Shown here piece after piece: positions 1 to 6,884 of a stretch of 7,475 bases of DNA. The DNA lies in the NCBI GenBank assembly GCA_031255815.1, contig JAIRRU010000147.1, forward strand, positions 1-7,475. The letters are read 5' to 3'. The notes under the pieces were generated by a model. That model was not told the origin of the DNA. It ran no database searches and worked only from the letters and a program-made list of their open reading frames with translations. The DNA is from Treponema sp. (GTDB lineage: Bacteria > Spirochaetota > Spirochaetia > Treponematales > Breznakiellaceae). The position numbers were made by a program, and so were the translations under genes. Each line of letters starts with the position of its first letter. Positions within the stretch are counted from its first letter, which is position 1.

Positions 1-1460
1 ATATCCACCGGAACTTTCCAGGCCCCCGGCGGCTTGGCGGGCCGGTTCCTGGGAAGCGGTTTGGGTTTTGCCGCCGGGATTCCCCGGGGGGAGTTTCCGG
101 AAGGACGGGTTCCGCCGGAAGGTTTTGAAAGAGGCTCTTTTGCGCGGGGCCCTTCAGCATGAGGCTCTTCCGCACCGGGTTCTTCCGTGGGGGGTTCTTC
201 AGCACGAGGTTCTTCCGGGCAGGATTCTTCAGCGGAGGGGCCTTCCGCCAAGGCCTGTTCCGGGGCGTCGTCTTCGCCGGGATCATCAGGCTCGTCGGAA
301 TCATCAAGATCATCAAGTTCGCCGGAATCATCAGGATCATCAAGCTCGCCGGAATCATCAGGCTCGTCGGAATCATCAAGATCATCGGGGTCATCAAGAT
401 CTTCCAGTTCCTCGGGTTCACCGGGATCTTCCGTTCCGGCGGGCCGGGCCCTTTCCGCGGCCCTGGCCGCTTCCACGCTGGCCAGGGGCTTTGGTTCGGG
501 GAGTTTGATGTTTATGTACGAGAGGATCTCCCGGCGGGGTTCCTCAGCCTGCCGCGCCGTTTCTTCGGGATCCGGGGTATCGGCGGCGGCTTTTCCGGTT
601 TCCGCGGCCCGGAGGGCGGGGGGAAGATCATCGTAACGCAGGCTTCCCGAAGGGCCCGCGGCGGCTTCCGTGTAGAACTGCCTCAGCCGGGTATCTTTTC
701 CCGAAAAGAGGAAAGCGTCGGCGTCGAATTCGGGAACCGGGGAGGGACTGCCCGCCGCCGGGGCTTTTTCCCCGGGGAAAAAGCCGGAAAGAAAGGATTT
801 CCCCTCCTCCGCCCTCGCGGTCTTTTTCTCCCGGTGTTCCCGCTCTTTCAGCCTGTCCCCGCCGGCGCGCAGCCAGCTGCCGACACGCTGGCGAAAGCCG
901 CTGCTGCCGATAAAGGCCCCCGGCTCCCCGGTTCCGCTCCCTTCCCGGGCCCCGTCCGGCCCGTTCCCGGCGGCAAGTTTTGAAAAGAAGCCCGGCTCCC
1001 CCGTCCTGGGGAAAAGCAGGATCCGCAGGGCCATGATCACCAGGGCCTCGAAAACGGTAAGGACGGCGATGATAAAGGTAAACCCGGTCTTCCCGGTAAG
1101 CGCCAGGAAAGCGAACTGCCCGGAACGGAATTCGAAGTCCCGGACAAAGGAGACGCCCGCCGCCAGGGTCAGGAAGGGGAAAACATTCACGCTCAGGAAA
1201 AAAACGCGATCGGGCCGCCATTCCTTATCCGCCAGGATGAAAGAGGCGTAGGCCAGGTTTGCGGGGACGGCGAAGGCGAGCAGGCCGTAGGAAGCGGCTA
1301 AAAAAGCGCCGGGGCCGGAACCGAAGCCGGGGATCCCGAGAATGGCCCCGGCGATGGCCAGCCCCAGAACCAGCGAGACAAGGCCCAGGCCCAGGGCGAC
1401 GGCAACAGCAACAAGGCGGTATGTTTTTTCGGTCTGAGGTAAAATCTCTTCTGACGACAC
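1..1460 (-). CDS. Four-helix membrane protein with long acidic repetitive tail (partial, C-terminus off the left edge)
   Basis: I do not recognise a named family. The frame is open from a GTG at 1458-1460 down to base 1, giving at least 486 residues with no stop. The start is set by AGGGAG at 1468-1473, seven bases upstream and overlapping the stop of the transglycosylase gene. Hydrophobic stretches at about residues 16-41, 52-76, 86-106 and 127-150 suggest four transmembrane helices. Basic residues K12/R15 and K79/R82/R85 suggest both ends are cytoplasmic. The rest is hydrophilic: a charged segment around 190-225, then Asp/Glu-rich repeats of DD-x-DD type at about 349-402, then a five-residue E-E-P-x-A-like repeat at about 409-444, then a basic Pro/Arg/Lys-rich stretch to the edge. 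The body has the same high-GC codon use as its neighbours, which supports coding. It is the third gene of the leftward envelope operon. Function is unknown; a membrane anchor or scaffold with a disordered tail is the most that can be inferred. Confidence 0.82.
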   Translation of the reverse strand, partial: MSSEEILPQTEKTYRLVAVAVALGLGLVSLVLGLAIAGAILGIPGFGSGPGAFLAASYGLLAFAVPANLAYASFILADKEWRPDRVFFLSVNVFPFLTLAAGVSFVRDFEFRSGQFAFLALTGKTGFTFIIAVLTVFEALVIMALRILLFPRTGEPGFFSKLAAGNGPDGAREGSGTGEPGAFIGSSGFRQRVGSWLRAGGDRLKEREHREKKTARAEEGKSFLSGFFPGEKAPAAGSPSPVPEFDADAFLFSGKDTRLRQFYTEAAAGPSGSLRYDDLPPALRAAETGKAAADTPDPEETARQAEEPRREILSYINIKLPEPKPLASVEAARAAERARPAGTEDPGEPEELEDLDDPDDLDDSDEPDDSGELDDPDDSGELDDLDDSDEPDDPGEDDAPEQALAEGPSAEESCPEEPRAEEPPTEEPGAEEPHAEGPRAKEPLSKPSGGTRPSGNSPRGIPAAKPKPLPRNRPAKPPGAWKVPVD

Positions 1461-1467
1461 GGAACGG

Positions 1468-1473
1468 CTCCCT
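1468..1473 (-). promoter_or_regulatory. Ribosome binding site for the acidic-tail membrane protein
   Basis: AGGGAG on the minus strand lies seven bases before the GTG at 1460 and overlaps the TAG stop of the upstream transglycosylase gene. It decides the start, since no ATG precedes the first hydrophobic segment in this frame, and it points to translation coupled to the upstream gene. Confidence 0.65.
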
Positions 1474-3688
1474 ATTTACATATATCGGCTATAAAGGCTT
1501 CGGGGTTCAGCTGGTAATAGAGAAAGCCGTATACCGCGGCTGCGGAGACCACTTTCCGGCCGTAGTCCCGGGTCTCCCGGTATTCGATGGTTTCCAGGAA
1601 GAGATCCCCCGGCAGGGCGCCGGAAGCCTCGTGCCAGCGCCGCACCCGGTTCATCCCGCCGTTGTAAGCCAGGATACTCAAGAGGAGGCTCAGGCGGTTC
1701 CGGAGGTATTCCAGGTAAAAAGAGCCGATGTACAGGTTTGTTTCCGGGTTCCGGAGATCCGGATCCCCTTCCCCGGTGTAGTCGGGCCCGCCCTGCCGCT
1801 TTATCCGGCCCGCCATTTCCCGGGCGGTGGGGGGCATCAGTTGGGTCAGGCCCACCGCGCCGGCCCGGGAGACAATGTCCGGCTGGAAGGCGCTTTCCGT
1901 CTTCACCAGGGCCCAGAGCAGGCCCGGCGGGAACCCGGCGGCGGCGCTCCGTTCCTCCACCGTCTCCCGGAAAGGCCGGGGGTGGGCGAATTCCAGATCC
2001 CGCCGCTCAAGTTCGTAACCATCCCGGCTCATGTAGGCGTTAACATGCCGGATAAGCTCCGGGTAGAGACCGGCCTCCTCCATGGCTTCCCCGATACGGC
2101 GGAGTTCGGGAAGGCTCAGGCCGTCCCTCAGTTTTTCCAGGTAGGGAAGGGCCTGCCGGGGGACACGGGCGTCGAAAAAACCCAGCAGGAAGGCCATTTC
2201 CCGGGGATGGGGAAAAGCCGCCGGCTCCCCGGAAGAAGATCCGCCCGGATCGAGGAAGGGTTCCCCCAGGAAGAAGGCGGCCAGGGCCCGGTAGTACAGG
2301 GTTCCTTCCCCCGCCCGGGAGCCTGCCTGGTAGGCTATCCGGAAAAAATCCGCCGCTTTTTTCTCCCCCGCGGGCACGTAACCCAGGGAAACAAGCCTTC
2401 CGGCGATGCAGGCGTACTTTGCCGTGGAAAGCCGGTCGCCGCCCCCCTCTATCCGGGCCAGGATCTCGGAAAAACCCTCCCACCGCTTCCCCGAGGCCAG
2501 GCGGTAAGCCAGGCGGTCAAGAATGTCGCTGAAGTAGGCGTCGTCGTTCCAGCGGGGGATGTAGGAGGCCGCCAGGGGGAGGATCTCCGGAATTTCTTCG
2601 GTAAGAGCCGTGTCGAGGATATACCAGATGCAGGCGTCTTCCTGGATCTTGTCTGGGGCGGCTTCCAGGGCCCGGCTGAACAGCTCCCGGCTCCGGCTGT
2701 AGTCCTGCCGCTGGCGGGCAATCCGCCCGGCGAAGTAGAGCAGGCGGTAACGCAGGGGCGGGGTATCCTCGTCCAGGAATTCCACCGGGGAGACTGTCCG
2801 GGTATCGGTTCGCAGGCCCTCTTCCCAGTTCAGAAAGAGTTCGGCGCCTTCGTTTCCGGAGGGGGTAAACTGGAAGCAGCGCCCCAGATCGTTCATCAGC
2901 CCCGGGTACCACAAGAAAATATCCGGCCTTTCCTGCAGAGTCTCCCGGAAATGCTCAAGCCCCTCTCCAAAAGCCCCCCGGGCTGTGGCAAAGCGGGCCG
3001 CCATAATAGTTTCCTCCCGCCGGGTAAAGAAGCCGGGGTACTCCCGCCGGATCTCCTCCCAGGCCCAGGCCGCCTCCTCTGCGGGGATCTCGCCGAAAAA
3101 GAAGACCAGGGCCTTATCTTTGGCCGCATCCCCGGTATAGGGAAATTCCGCGTCCGCATCCCCGGCAGGGCCCGGCTCTCCGGCCTTTTTCCGCAGGCCC
3201 AGTTCGGCCAGGAAAAGGAGGGCGTTTTCCCAGGAAGCCCGGCCGGTTTCGGGAACCCGGTTGATATCCTGGAGGGCCTCCGCGTAACGGCCCAGGCGGT
3301 AATACGCCGCGGCCCGCAGGCTCCGTTCCCCCTCAAGGTTCCCGCCGGAAGACGGGCTTCCGGCAGCCGCCCCCGCGGAGGGAGCGGCCCCCGGCTCAGG
3401 GGCCTTGGGGCGGGGCAGTTTTTTTAGAACGGATTCCGCCAGATCAAGGTCTCCCTCCAGGAGGGGGCGGAGAAGCCGTTCCGCCGCGGCGTTCCGGATA
3501 AGCGCCTCCGGGCTTTGCAGGGCGTTTTCAAAGAGCGCCCGGACTTTGGAAGGCTCGGCCTCGGGGGAAGCGGAACTTTTCAGGGCTTCATAAAAGGCGC
3601 GGGAAGCCGGATCCCAATCCTGGCCGCTGCAGGAGCAGAGGACGAGGCAGGCCAGGACAAGGGAAAGGGAGGAGCGCAAGGTTCCCAC
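1472..3688 (-). CDS. Soluble-lytic-transglycosylase-type murein hydrolase, probable lipoprotein
   Basis: The C-terminal domain (about residues 581-735) has the family 1 (Slt/GH23) lytic transglycosylase signature: a KTES segment whose Glu598 is the expected catalytic acid, GLTQLMP at 613-619, and AYNGG at 674-678. Such enzymes cleave the MurNAc-GlcNAc bond of peptidoglycan, leaving a 1,6-anhydro end. The N-terminal ~550 residues look alpha-helical and repeat-like (for example 125-143 and 313-345), as in the superhelical ring of E. coli Slt70. The protein is 738 residues against about 645 for Slt70; an Ala/Pro/Ser/Gly-rich insert at about 92-118 explains part of the excess. The N-terminus is a signal sequence with cysteines at 14, 18 and 20; LAC14 or LCSC20 could be a lipobox, so a periplasmic lipoprotein is likely. 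The GTG start shares one base with the preceding stop (TAGTG) and no clear ribosome site is visible, suggesting translational coupling. TTG at codon 4 is an alternative start. Confidence 0.94.
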   Translation of the reverse strand: MGTLRSSLSLVLACLVLCSCSGQDWDPASRAFYEALKSSASPEAEPSKVRALFENALQSPEALIRNAAAERLLRPLLEGDLDLAESVLKKLPRPKAPEPGAAPSAGAAAGSPSSGGNLEGERSLRAAAYYRLGRYAEALQDINRVPETGRASWENALLFLAELGLRKKAGEPGPAGDADAEFPYTGDAAKDKALVFFFGEIPAEEAAWAWEEIRREYPGFFTRREETIMAARFATARGAFGEGLEHFRETLQERPDIFLWYPGLMNDLGRCFQFTPSGNEGAELFLNWEEGLRTDTRTVSPVEFLDEDTPPLRYRLLYFAGRIARQRQDYSRSRELFSRALEAAPDKIQEDACIWYILDTALTEEIPEILPLAASYIPRWNDDAYFSDILDRLAYRLASGKRWEGFSEILARIEGGGDRLSTAKYACIAGRLVSLGYVPAGEKKAADFFRIAYQAGSRAGEGTLYYRALAAFFLGEPFLDPGGSSSGEPAAFPHPREMAFLLGFFDARVPRQALPYLEKLRDGLSLPELRRIGEAMEEAGLYPELIRHVNAYMSRDGYELERRDLEFAHPRPFRETVEERSAAAGFPPGLLWALVKTESAFQPDIVSRAGAVGLTQLMPPTAREMAGRIKRQGGPDYTGEGDPDLRNPETNLYIGSFYLEYLRNRLSLLLSILAYNGGMNRVRRWHEASGALPGDLFLETIEYRETRDYGRKVVSAAAVYGFLYYQLNPEAFIADICK

Positions 3689-4686
3689 TAATTTTTAGGC
3701 GGAATACGGATAGTCTTGCCGGAAATGATCAGATCCGGGTTTCTAATACCGTTGTGCCGGGCGATCCGGGGGTAGAGCCAGGGGTTCCGGTAGAAGGCCT
3801 CGGCGATATCCCAAAGCGTGTCCCCCCAGCGGATCCGGTAAGCCACCCCGTTCCGGGGAATGGTGGCGGGAACCTTGTAGGAAGATACCGGCGCGGGAGG
3901 CCGGACTCTCCTGGCCGCGCTAACCGGGGCGGGGCGGGCCGGGGCGCTGATAACCGGAGGCGGCGCCTGAACCGGGGCCGGCTGGGGGGGCCGGACCGGA
4001 TCGGCTGCTTGCACCGGGGGGGCGGCCGGCCGCGCGGAAACCGGCGGCTCGGGCGGGGCAGGCGGTTGGGGCGGCTCAGGCGGCGGGGAAGCGGGCTGGG
4101 AAAGGGCCGGAGAGGTTTCGGCCCCCGGAGAAAGGCCGGAAGCGTCTTTGCCCCGGAAAAAGAAGAACCACAGGGCAAGGCAGAGGGCGATGATCAGCAC
4201 GCCGATGATAATAACCGCCGGCCAGGGGAAGAATCTTTTCTCCTCTTTTTTCTTTATCTTTTCGCTCCGTTCGTAAAGGCCGCTGGGGGGTTCCTCGTTC
4301 TGCTCCAACTCGAAATCGGGAAGCTCGTAATCCCGGATATCCTCGTCAAGGGATTTAAGGGAAACATTCAGGTACTGGTGCTGGCCGCCGGAACTGGTAT
4401 CCAGATCGATGGCCTCCGCGCTGATCTCCCCGTTTTCGGTGGAGGAAATAATCATCTCAATGGAAGGATCCCCCTTGGGTTTCGGTTTTATATTTTCCAC
4501 TACCAGGCTGCCGATATAAAGCGCGTCGGCCATGGTCTTGGCAGCGCTCTTATAGAGATCGATCTGGACGCTGCTCTGCTTGTTGTGCACCGTGGTAAGC
4601 ACCAGCCGTTTTTTCGATTTAACATTTTCGTCTATGATAGGGTAAAATTCGCCGTTGGCTATTTTAATGCCAATAGTTCCCGCCAT
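3688..4686 (-). CDS. Membrane protein with cytoplasmic Hsp70 substrate-binding-like domain and periplasmic LysM domain
   Basis: The protein has 332 residues and four parts. Residues 3-112 resemble the beta-sandwich substrate-binding domain of DnaK/Hsp70: NKQSSVQIDLY (35-45), IKPKPKGDPSIEM (66-78) and ENGEISAEAID (84-94) line up with the DnaK segments around NQSAVTIHV, INPAPRGMPQIEV and ADGILHVSAKD. No ATPase domain and no helical lid are present. Residues 113-151 are charged and end in a lysine-rich cluster, so the N-terminus should be cytoplasmic. Residues 154-177 form one transmembrane helix. Residues 184-266 are a proline/alanine-rich linker. Residues 281-329 are a LysM domain (YRIRWGDTLWDIA, then NGI and GKTIRIP), which in known families binds the GlcNAc chains of peptidoglycan. 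The ATG is preceded by AAGGAG with eight-base spacing. It is the first gene of the leftward operon and its stop overlaps the transglycosylase start. The likely role, inferred only, is linking a cytoplasmic or membrane complex to the cell wall. Confidence 0.93.
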   Translation of the reverse strand: MAGTIGIKIANGEFYPIIDENVKSKKRLVLTTVHNKQSSVQIDLYKSAAKTMADALYIGSLVVENIKPKPKGDPSIEMIISSTENGEISAEAIDLDTSSGGQHQYLNVSLKSLDEDIRDYELPDFELEQNEEPPSGLYERSEKIKKKEEKRFFPWPAVIIIGVLIIALCLALWFFFFRGKDASGLSPGAETSPALSQPASPPPEPPQPPAPPEPPVSARPAAPPVQAADPVRPPQPAPVQAPPPVISAPARPAPVSAARRVRPPAPVSSYKVPATIPRNGVAYRIRWGDTLWDIAEAFYRNPWLYPRIARHNGIRNPDLIISGKTIRIPPKN

Positions 4687-4700: not shown

Positions 4701-4732
4701 ATATTCTGCCGCCAGGTTTTTAACAAACTGAG

Positions 4733-4763
4733 GCTGTTCCAAAATGTCAAATTTTGGAGCAGC
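4733..4763. repeat. Hairpin repeat, copy 1
   Basis: GCTGTTCCAAAAT at 4733-4745 pairs with ATTTTGGAGCAGC at 4751-4763 across a five-base loop, 13 pairs including one G-T wobble. It is followed by TTCTTTT. The same motif recurs at 4939-4967 in the same orientation. It lies in the untranslated leader of the Hsp70-like/LysM gene. It could be a dispersed palindromic (REP-like) repeat, an operator or an RNA hairpin. Confidence 0.75.
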
Positions 4764-4938
4764 TTCTTTTAACTGTCTTGAACCATCCCGAAACCAGGCG
4801 GGCTCCGGGACTGCTTTTTATATTTCGGCTGTTTCTCTTAATTTAAACAGTTCCTTACCGGGCATTTCGGGTATTTTTACATTTTTTGGCGTGATTTTCC
4901 GATCTTGTTTGTACTGATTTATGCCGGAATTTCGGCGC

Positions 4939-4967
4939 CTGTTCCAAAAATTGAAGTTTTGGAACAG
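4939..4967. repeat. Hairpin repeat, copy 2
   Basis: CTGTTCCAAAA at 4939-4949 is perfectly complementary to TTTTGGAACAG at 4957-4967, an 11-base stem with a seven-base loop. The flank CAGCTTC matches copy 1. It ends about 40 bases before the TPR gene start, so it falls in that gene's leader or promoter. Confidence 0.78.
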
Positions 4968-5007
4968 CTTCGATTAAAAAAGTCCCGAAAGGAACCGATA
5001 ATAAGGC

Positions 5008-6393
5008 ATGATTAGTATCCTTCCTATTCTATTAGCAGGCATTGGCCTTGCCGGCGTGGTATTGATAGCTATGCTGATCCTTGGCCGCGGGAAAGGGAAT
5101 CTGAACACCGGTCACGGAAGAAGGATGAGAGGCCGGGATGCGATTGTCAAAGACGCTGCCAAGCGCCTTAACCAGAACCCCCGGGATCCCCAGGCCCTCA
5201 AAGTGATGGCGGATATCTATTACCAGGAAGAAAACTGGGCCGACGCCATGAAAACCTACGAAACCCTTACGGAAGTGGCGGGGGGCAACAGCGGGGTAGA
5301 CGAATTTGAGGCGAACAGGGGATACGGCCTTGCGGCCAGCAAACTCAACATGCAAAACGAGGCCCTCCGGGGTCTAAGCGCCGCCCGGGCCCTCCGTCAG
5401 GATGATTTCGAGGTAAACTGCACCCTGGGCTATCTGGAATTTCAGCGGAAAAACTATGAAAAGGCTATACAGCTTCTGGATCAGGCCCGCAAACTAAACC
5501 CGGAAAGCACCATGGCCCTGCGTTACCTGGGCCATGCCCTCTTCAGGCTGAAAAAGGCCAAGGAGGCGATGGTGTATATCCGCAAAGCCATCGACCTGGC
5601 CCCGGACGACAAGGAATCTCTCTACACCCTGGCGGAGTGTTACTACGAGGCGAACCAGATCGAGCAGGCCCTGCGGCTCTTCGGCCATATGCGGGCGGAT
5701 CCCAACATGGGCCCCAGCGCCTGCCTTTTTTCGGGCACCATAAAAATGGAACTGCGCCAGACCGATTCGGCCATTCAGGATTTCGAGATCGGGCTCCGGC
5801 ATCAGGACATCAAGGCCGATATCCTGGTGGATCTGCGTTACCGGCTTGCCCAGGCCTACCTTTCAAAAAACGATATCGCCAAGGCCATGCCCCTGCTCCA
5901 GATGATCCAGGCCGACACCCCCGGCTACAAAGACGTAACCGTGCTTATCAGCAAATACCAGGAGATGAACGCCAACCGGAACCTGCAAATATACCTTATG
6001 GCCCCCTCCGCGGATTTTGTGGCCCTCTGCCGGAAGATCGTCATGACCTACTTCCCCAAGGCGAAGGTAAAGATCACCAATATCCAGGTGAACAAAAACG
6101 AATGGGCGGATATTCAGGCGGAGGTGGATACCCCCAGATGGTCGGATCTTATCATGTTCCGGTTTATCCGCACCCCGGGCTCCATCGGGGAGCTTATTGT
6201 CCGGGATTTCCACTCCCACCTTAAAGAGGTAAAGGCGGGCAAGGGAGTCTGTATTACGGTGGGGACTTACTCCGAAGAGGCGAAGCGGTATACCGAGGCC
6301 CGGCTTATCGATCTTATCGAAAAGGAAAAGCTTACCGCCATGCTCAACATGGTGGACGCCCGGGCGGCGGTTACGGCGCCCAAAAAAAGGTAG
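5008..6393 (+). CDS. Membrane-anchored TPR protein with degenerate Mrr-type nuclease-like domain
   Basis: This 461-residue protein begins with one hydrophobic helix (about 3-25) followed by a basic stretch (R27, K29, R38, R39, R41, R43), so the bulk should face the cytoplasm. About six to seven TPR-like helix pairs follow (roughly 48-309), for example 135-168 with GYLEFQRKNYEKAI and 169-202 with GHALFRLKKAKEAM. TPRs mediate protein-protein contacts. Residues about 330-446 resemble the Mrr-type restriction endonuclease fold, most clearly the end: GKGVCITVGTYSEEAKRYTE, then LIDLIEKEKL. In active Mrr enzymes a Q-x-K motif lies on the strand before this; here the segment reads FRFIR (384-388), so catalysis is probably lost. 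The ATG follows an in-frame TAA at 5002-5004. The likely ribosome site, AAAGGA at 4988-4993, is 14 bases away, which is long, so initiation may be weak. The small gene downstream is 32 bases away. A scaffold role is inferred; a relation to spirochaete flagellar collar TPR proteins is possible but unsupported by length. Confidence 0.92.
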   Translation: MISILPILLAGIGLAGVVLIAMLILGRGKGNLNTGHGRRMRGRDAIVKDAAKRLNQNPRDPQALKVMADIYYQEENWADAMKTYETLTEVAGGNSGVDEFEANRGYGLAASKLNMQNEALRGLSAARALRQDDFEVNCTLGYLEFQRKNYEKAIQLLDQARKLNPESTMALRYLGHALFRLKKAKEAMVYIRKAIDLAPDDKESLYTLAECYYEANQIEQALRLFGHMRADPNMGPSACLFSGTIKMELRQTDSAIQDFEIGLRHQDIKADILVDLRYRLAQAYLSKNDIAKAMPLLQMIQADTPGYKDVTVLISKYQEMNANRNLQIYLMAPSADFVALCRKIVMTYFPKAKVKITNIQVNKNEWADIQAEVDTPRWSDLIMFRFIRTPGSIGELIVRDFHSHLKEVKAGKGVCITVGTYSEEAKRYTEARLIDLIEKEKLTAMLNMVDARAAVTAPKKR

Positions 6394-6425: not shown

Positions 6426-6884
6426 ATGCGCCCGGTAGAACGTTTCCTTTCCCTGCTTGAACGCCTGGAACAGGCCCGGGATAGCGGCAGCGCTTCCGCC
6501 TCCGGGGATCGCCTGGCCCGGGAATTCGTAAACCTTTGCGCGCCGATCCTGGGCGCGGCCGCCGCAAAGGATCTCTGCGCCGCCGCATTTGAGCGGCTCA
6601 AGGCAAAGCGCCCCCCCGCCTGCCGCAAACTTGGGTTTATCGCCGCCTTCCTGCTGGACGACTTTGACGACGAGTCCATGGAACTGGACGATGAGGACTG
6701 GAAGGACATCCGGGAAGCCCTGGAAGACGCTTCCGCCGGGATGAACCTCGACGTTTTGACAACCCTGATGGGCGGGCTTCTCTCCCGCGGCAAGCTGGAT
6801 CAGCGCCCCGCCCAGCCTTATGGAACTGTTGGCCGGAATTTCCGGCTTCCCCCCTCCCCGCGCCAGCAGGCTGATTTAGAGTAA
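6426..6884 (+). CDS. Small unrecognised protein with acidic patch
   Basis: I do not recognise this 152-residue protein. It has no signal peptide or membrane segment, so it is probably cytoplasmic. Residues 1-60 look helical (R/L/E/A-rich). A conspicuous acidic cluster lies at about 78-94 (DDFDDESMELDDEDW core), followed by another probable helix and a Pro/Gln/Arg-rich tail from about 126. Evidence for coding: a strong ribosome site directly upstream, high-GC third positions like its neighbours, and a position 32 bases after the TPR gene in the same direction, which suggests co-transcription. A six-base stem at 6832-6846 lies within its 3' end but lacks a T-run, so it is not a convincing terminator. 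The short tail after about residue 130 has less protein-like composition. It may be a partner of the TPR protein, by context only. Confidence 0.72.
   Translation: MRPVERFLSLLERLEQARDSGSASASGDRLAREFVNLCAPILGAAAAKDLCAAAFERLKAKRPPACRKLGFIAAFLLDDFDDESMELDDEDWKDIREALEDASAGMNLDVLTTLMGGLLSRGKLDQRPAQPYGTVGRNFRLPPSPRQQADLE

Follow-up and report, generated by a model that had tools for sequence, protein, structure and literature searches.

We report the analysis of a 7,475-nucleotide stretch of DNA from Treponema sp. (contig JAIRRU010000147.1; the whole of this stretch is hereafter the window), in which a gene on the minus strand encodes a homologous Hsp70 substrate-binding beta-domain (SBD), with neither an ATPase domain nor a lid, joined to a membrane helix and followed by a LysM domain. 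The gene keeps the coordinates given to it in an initial annotation made from the sequence; the most telling fact about it lies outside those coordinates, namely its pairing with the gene for a lytic transglycosylase of the BB0259 type, which it overlaps in the window by one base. Since the SBD gene so often lies beside that of the enzyme presumed to open the wall for the internal flagella, its product may help to place or control the cut. We tentatively favour, at somewhat less than even weight, the reading that the protein is an ATP-independent, Hsp70-derived adaptor spanning the inner membrane, by which the enzyme is placed or gated for the periplasmic flagella. The SBD, with a probable cytoplasmic location, would hold an extended partner peptide without an ATP cycle, the helix would span the membrane, the linker and LysM would reach the peptidoglycan and the adaptor, co-produced with the transglycosylase, would position or gate the latter at the point where the wall has to be crossed by a growing periplasmic flagellum.

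The initial annotation had assigned residues 1-112 to the Hsp70 SBD and had proposed a profile search, which bears the assignment out: the Pfam HSP70 family PF00012 is matched at 2.5e-8 (33.1 bits, curated cut-off 20.6), residues 4-106 of the protein aligning with positions 393-497 of the 599 in the profile. The NCBIfam model prok_dnaK (TIGR02350) matches residues 4-100 at 2.6e-9, far under the cut-off of that model for full-length proteins, and Hsp70/DnaK chains head the phmmer list against PDB sequences (best 2.2e-7, residues 4-129). When a profile of 37 family members is compared with one of 10 Hsp70 SBDs, hhalign gives a probability of 99.2 over 107 columns, and together with the Pfam match this rules out a chance resemblance. 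Residue 1 aligns with DnaK 395, so that the frame begins where the SBD begins, and the SBD-LysM frame holds no nucleotide-binding domain, the Pfam match opening at profile position 393 with residue 4. Neither the interdomain linker nor the alpha lid is present; past about residue 112 there follow instead an acidic stretch with the motif PDFELE, a basic stretch and the membrane helix, in agreement with the earlier statement that ATPase domain and lid are missing. A motif of the form [DN]F-x-[LIVF] beyond residue 100 is found in 27 of the 37 rows of the family alignment (A2).

The remainder of the layout, a single membrane helix, a proline-rich linker and LysM, is likewise as first described. 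A Kyte-Doolittle scan finds a single hydrophobic segment (residues 150-181), the linker is evident in the sequence and the LysM match scores 33.7 bits against a curated cut-off of 20.9 (Table 1). Lysine and arginine together are more frequent N-terminal to the helix than C-terminal to it in 102 of the 120 close proteins listed, the query included (opposite in 5, equal in 13), but in only 35 of 66 distant proteins (opposite in 21, equal in 10; 2 of the 66 lack an HSP70 match). From this charge balance we infer that the SBD probably lies on the cytoplasmic side. Scans with Rfam and for tRNA gave nothing that led further.

Table 1. Coordinates in the window of the SBD-LysM gene, its domains and the neighbouring features
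Feature	Position	Strand	Basis
Gene for the SBD-membrane helix-LysM protein, 332 amino acids; ATG at 4686, TAG at 3690-3688	3688..4686	-	Open reading frame, Pfam
Hsp70 substrate-binding beta-domain, residues 4-106, no nucleotide-binding domain or lid	4369..4677	-	PF00012, PDB phmmer, hhalign
Conserved motif between SBD and membrane helix, residues 123-128, here PDFELE	4303..4320	-	Alignment A2
One membrane helix, residues ~154-176, preceded by basic KIKKKEEKR	4159..4227	-	Hydropathy scan
Proline-rich linker, residues ~181-276, varying among relatives	3859..4146	-	Sequence, alignment A1
LysM domain, residues 283-329	3700..3840	-	PF01476 3.6e-8
TAGTG, SBD-LysM stop sharing one base with the GTG start of the enzyme	3686..3690	-	Sequence
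BB0259-type flagellar lytic transglycosylase, 738 amino acids, lipoprotein-like N-terminus (by eye and motif script)	1472..3688	-	NF047373, SLT
FtsK, N-terminal part running off the end of the window; membrane segments and acidic linker	3..1460	-	Homology to L009
TPR protein with C-terminal Mrr_cat-like domain, divergent	5008..6393	+	TPR 4.4e-22, PF04471 7e-7
Open frame, 152 amino acids, no family match over cut-off	6426-6881		Matched in 12/80 related loci

The enzyme encoded downstream matches NF047373 at 7.1e-121 (405 bits, cut-off 234) and the SLT family PF01464 at 9.5e-23. Counts of the pair across the phylum, which take in 129 SBD genomes and 114 enzyme genomes among the matches listed, with Borrelia-like genomes left out, place both genes in 106 genomes, on one contig in 97 and split between contigs in 9; the enzyme gene lies downstream, on the same strand and within 5 kb, in 95 of the 97, and in the other two the genes are far apart. 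It is the next gene in all of 20 hand-picked distant loci and has a match in 76 of the 80 close ones, two of the four that lack it (L048 and L049) lying on contigs that end soon after the SBD gene. The two genes are also neighbours in L167, L170 and L172 and in the Borrelia-type loci L177 and L178. Among 101 loci tested, a start with a lipobox was recognised in 51, and in 37 of these a possible enzyme start lay at most 30 bases from the upstream stop, a figure that is favoured because the script picked the candidate nearest the stop; in some loci (L003, for example) the script missed the enzyme, whose long open frame escaped its filter. In one locus, L267, a protein of 163 amino acids occupies the SBD position upstream; it resembles a remnant to the eye alone and is not matched by the family model.

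The initial annotation had called the architecture unusual, which does not hold: it is that of a spirochaete family and not of a one-off fusion, and the databases already label its members as Hsp70 or LysM proteins. A protein search with the SBD-LysM sequence scored 7997 candidates and returned 2084 matches at E <= 0.001, and both PF00012 and PF01476 were found in 118 of the best 120 of these, the query included. Where names are given they read 'Hsp70 family protein' or 'LysM peptidoglycan-binding domain-containing protein', and the named members come from Treponema, Spirochaetia and Leadbettera. The order of SBD, helix and LysM, which the annotation had suggested surveying among homologues, is upheld in the spirochaete relatives, with the reservation that LysM is missing from six relatives considered below. 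The distant-lineage query L167 gave 70 matches, of which 63 carry both domains, and a genome scan led from 127 pattern matches to 101 relatives, of which 80 were kept, all titled as spirochaetes. In a search with family models, which covered the Spirochaetota, members were found in 129 of 392 genomes and none in 263 at the cut used, E 3.7e-24. The cut was set at this level because a model of the SBD alone also detects DnaK (384 of the 392 genomes); it misses G319 and G386, in both of which the gene adjoins that of the enzyme by coordinates, as well as the Borrelia-type copies and L265. A first count of 264/392 was discarded, as it had included LysM-only matches, such as proteins of 382-387 amino acids.

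Relatives that bear LysM range from 274 to 802 amino acids, and the T. pallidum-like copy holds the entire architecture within 310; its SBD is invisible to Pfam and is reached by the family model at 3.9e-29, the sequence having been part of that model. A membrane segment is present in 140 of 141 distinct frames (142 minus one fragment of DnaK) and the LysM motif G[DN][TNS]LW in 130 of the 141, with a variant of it in L064 and L119, though the loci were found with the family models and the sample is therefore biased toward the family. Literature searches on Hsp70 substrate-binding domain, LysM and spirochete, and on Hsp70 with the LysM domain, found no description of the SBD-LysM protein, judged by title and opening of the abstract among the papers listed.

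What the SBD might do is suggested by which of its positions are kept. Over 37 aligned members, the mean entropy at 15 positions aligned with the peptide groove of DnaK is 1.01 bits, against 1.93 over the remainder of the SBD; in 20,000 draws of 15 random positions a fraction of 5e-5 is as conserved, or 1.1e-3 if the draws are confined to residues 4-60. The list of peptide contacts behind these positions is what we take to be that of the 1DKX structure. By sequence the hydrophobic pocket is kept, I7, L30, V40 and I42 standing at DnaK I401, F426, V436 and I438, and Q37 is invariant in the alignment. I5, G6 and F14 are invariant too, though not on the groove list, implying that part of the conservation may serve folding. 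We take the conservation of the groove-aligned positions to suggest that the groove is in use. These positions being the better conserved part of the domain, even if some of them may be kept for folding, argues against the fold acting as a docking domain with an empty groove, for example for the divergently encoded TPR protein. That alternative, which we judge unlikely, would account for the loss of the groove loop in two Borrelia-type copies whose helix and neighbours remain, and is consistent with the occurrence of the TPR gene in 58 of the 80 close loci (some of which are cut by contig ends) and also beside the enzyme-less SBD copies of L162, L165 and L168.

Groove conservation also speaks for a membrane-tethered holdase or Hsp70 helper, the SBD of which would bind unfolded or membrane-proximal clients and hand them to the cell's DnaK. 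An ordinary, full-length DnaK is indeed at hand, in 5 of six genomes searched with PF00012 (none in G004), with a DnaK match in all 80 genomes of a second set. However, the protein has no lid or ATPase for release, the counterpart of DnaK E402 is K or R in every row of alignment A2, so that its choice of substrate should differ from that of DnaK, and a general chaperone has no need of a frequent tie to the gene of one periplasmic enzyme; we consider a holdase quite improbable. The same six-genome search speaks against a split Hsp70 with its ATPase half encoded elsewhere, which we reject. Besides DnaK and the SBD proteins it returned ATPase-region matches in frames of 360-399 amino acids, taken as MreB, one second Hsp70 of 578 amino acids that has an SBD of its own and, at 5.3e-6, a single weak match in a frame of 593 amino acids. 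A further reading keeps both the enzyme and the flagellum but makes the protein a transmembrane sensor derived from a peptide clamp without its former ATP cycle. The SBD would recognise, in the cytoplasm, a peptide exposed by the flagellar base during assembly and, by way of the membrane and the wall-bound LysM arm, would license the enzyme to open the peptidoglycan at that site and nowhere else; we think this rather unlikely.

Six relatives (L170, L172, L176, L177, L178 and L265), apparently of several independent lineages, lack LysM while SBD and helix stay, implying that SBD and helix are the core of the protein and LysM a common but dispensable arm. The suggestion in the initial annotation that the protein is a wall-coupled receptor and not a chaperone agrees with our findings. 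In the Borrelia-type loci L177 and L178, a protein of about 345-377 amino acids directly upstream of the enzyme begins like an SBD (its hhalign score is 52, where 60 shuffles reached at most 21) and goes on to an acidic linker and, close to the end of the chain, a helix; neither LysM nor the TTVxDNQ loop is seen in these two copies, and Pfam is blank for the one tested. About 4 kb from the SBD gene the same loci encode a lidless second Hsp70 (L177:14080-15573, a frame of 498 amino acids; L178:14385-15842, 486 amino acids). The SBDs of these proteins, and those of L133 and L087, resemble the family by eye (FTTV.D.Q, KG.P.IE), and such a lidless second Hsp70 is a possible source of the fused SBD.

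Several observations weigh against an adaptor for the flagellar wall-cutting enzyme, and the first group concerns the pairing itself. Among the 80 close loci, L002 and L074 have no enzyme match next to the SBD gene, and there is none near it in L161, L162, L164, L165, L166, L169, L171, L173, L174 and L176; none was seen in L163 and L168 either, where the contigs end too soon. Apart from L002 and L074, these loci belong to a set of 20 picked because something was missing there, one of which, L175, is a piece of DnaK. L164-L166 are enzyme-less and a member of the same lineage, L167, has the enzyme, while G012, G055 and G148 carry it elsewhere in the genome. Furthermore, 23 of the 129 SBD genomes fall outside the listed enzyme places (10 of these have a genome-level enzyme match of 3e-72 or better and the others a weaker one or none), and the enzyme occurs without an SBD gene beside it in G284, G301, G354, G366, G367, G376 and G385. 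To these points are added the absence of LysM from the six relatives, Borrelia-type copies among them, and the loss of the TTVxDNQ loop in the Borrelia-type copy although BB0259 works there. Where the enzyme is absent in L169 and L171, the SBD gene is followed by a frame of about 1612-1625 amino acids (L169:3253-8127, L171:10295-15130).

The second group concerns the flagella. An SBD member is present in 127 of 344 FliF-positive and in 2 of 48 FliF-negative genomes, and the two latter, G069 and G320, also have the enzyme; their lack of FliF is probably due to assembly gaps. It follows that 217 of the 344 FliF-positive genomes have no member at the cut used, many of them probably Leptospira-like, and on a tree of DnaK several FliF-positive lineages are without the SBD protein. 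In that tree 8 of the 48 FliF-negative genomes were left off by hand for their Leptospira-like look, rows G012 and G327 were disregarded and G259 is marked as SBD-less, yet has a divergent SBD protein. Of the 40 FliF-negative genomes that remain on it, 35 form one clade within SBD-bearing lineages, so that the evidence comes down to two or three events. The co-occurrence (Fisher p 7e-7) thus fails on the tree, and we reject it as a demonstration of flagella dependence; with so few independent losses, it is mainly the gene pair, and less the co-occurrence, that carries the flagellar reading.

The protein might, alternatively, be a scaffold of the division or growth zone, a general organiser of the envelope with a RodZ- or FimV-like layout that is tied to FtsK and wall synthesis and has the enzyme only as a co-regulated neighbour. 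The window has FtsK in the same string of genes and, where the enzyme is gone, FtsK directly follows the SBD gene in L162 and L174 (by Pfam), L173 (by eye) and L002 (by similarity to the fragment in the window). A UppP-like gene, so named by eye, comes after the enzyme in two loci, L167 and the Borrelia-type L177, and the SBD protein persists in G244, G304 and G322, which are FliF-positive and enzyme-less. Yet FtsK is, to our knowledge, near-universal, and the 263 genomes without an SBD member include 46 of the 48 FliF-negative ones; the enzyme, moreover, is the immediate neighbour in 20/20 distant loci and is matched in 76/80 close ones, and we regard a scaffold of this kind as unlikely. The FtsK fragment of the window has no Pfam match of its own above cut-off and is named from its homologue in L009 (41% over residues 1-366), a FtsK of 911 amino acids with alpha, motor and gamma domains.

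On the other side of the SBD gene, the TPR gene, the Mrr_cat-like domain of which is restriction-endonuclease-like, is matched in 5 of the 20 distant loci and stays divergent to the SBD gene even in Borrelia-type loci, an odd pairing. The spacer between the two divergent genes (4730-4977) holds a palindromic element of 39 bases, of the type CTGTTCCAAAA...TTTTGGAACAG, in two imperfect copies, one of which looks terminator-like; its pattern matched 3 times, against 0 in 200 shuffles, and was matched in only 4 of 268 loci. The frame of 152 amino acids beyond the TPR gene is probably a real small gene, given its matches in related loci (Table 1).

Passages of PMC8517470 report that BB0259 is required for the hook to cross the wall in B. 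burgdorferi and that it interacts with FlgJ; the enzyme is 'pre-localized' in the wording of its authors, and the localizing factor is not named in those passages. The main text of that paper mentions none of BB0260, Hsp70 and LysM, and literature searches under BB0260/BB0261, TP0041-TP0043 (judged by title) and TP0047 with LysM found nothing on the SBD-LysM protein. For T. pallidum, TP0046-TP0048 are tied to motility in passages on a two-hybrid map (PMC2386257), and TP0048 is named CcmA in a passage of PMC5015957. About 6.6 kb downstream, the T. pallidum-like copy is followed by a gene of the bactofilin type (L158:16052-16492) that fits TP0048. For the question of how spirochaetes confine wall cutting to the sites of flagellar exit, the SBD-LysM protein is a direct candidate, being co-encoded with the enzyme and having a putative wall-binding arm and a probably cytoplasmic module. 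It is, furthermore, a clear example of the substrate domain of Hsp70 without ATPase and lid, in which to see whether the clamp can be a plain recognition module.

Among known systems, envelope scaffolds of the FimV, TsaP and RodZ type combine a single helix with a module to one side of the inner membrane and another that is periplasmic or binds the wall. The SBD-LysM protein is like them in this layout, the comparison being one of layout and, in sequence, of LysM only; it is unlike them in that its presumed cytoplasmic module is Hsp70-derived. With regard to BB0259/LTaseBb (NF047373), it is the downstream gene of the window that is a member, and the SBD-LysM protein is its neighbour only. The BB0264-like second Hsp70 shares with the SBD-LysM protein an SBD-beta without a lid but retains a full ATPase domain (PF00012 7.2e-129, residues 14-484), and no LysM match was seen in it. 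Hsp70/DnaK itself (PF00012, TIGR02350) is homologous over about 107 columns of SBD-beta, and its hydrophobic pocket positions are kept in the SBD-LysM protein. The latter differs in having no nucleotide-binding domain, linker or alpha lid, in being shorter by two aligned residues past the second strand, in its membrane helix and in the K or R that takes the place of E402.

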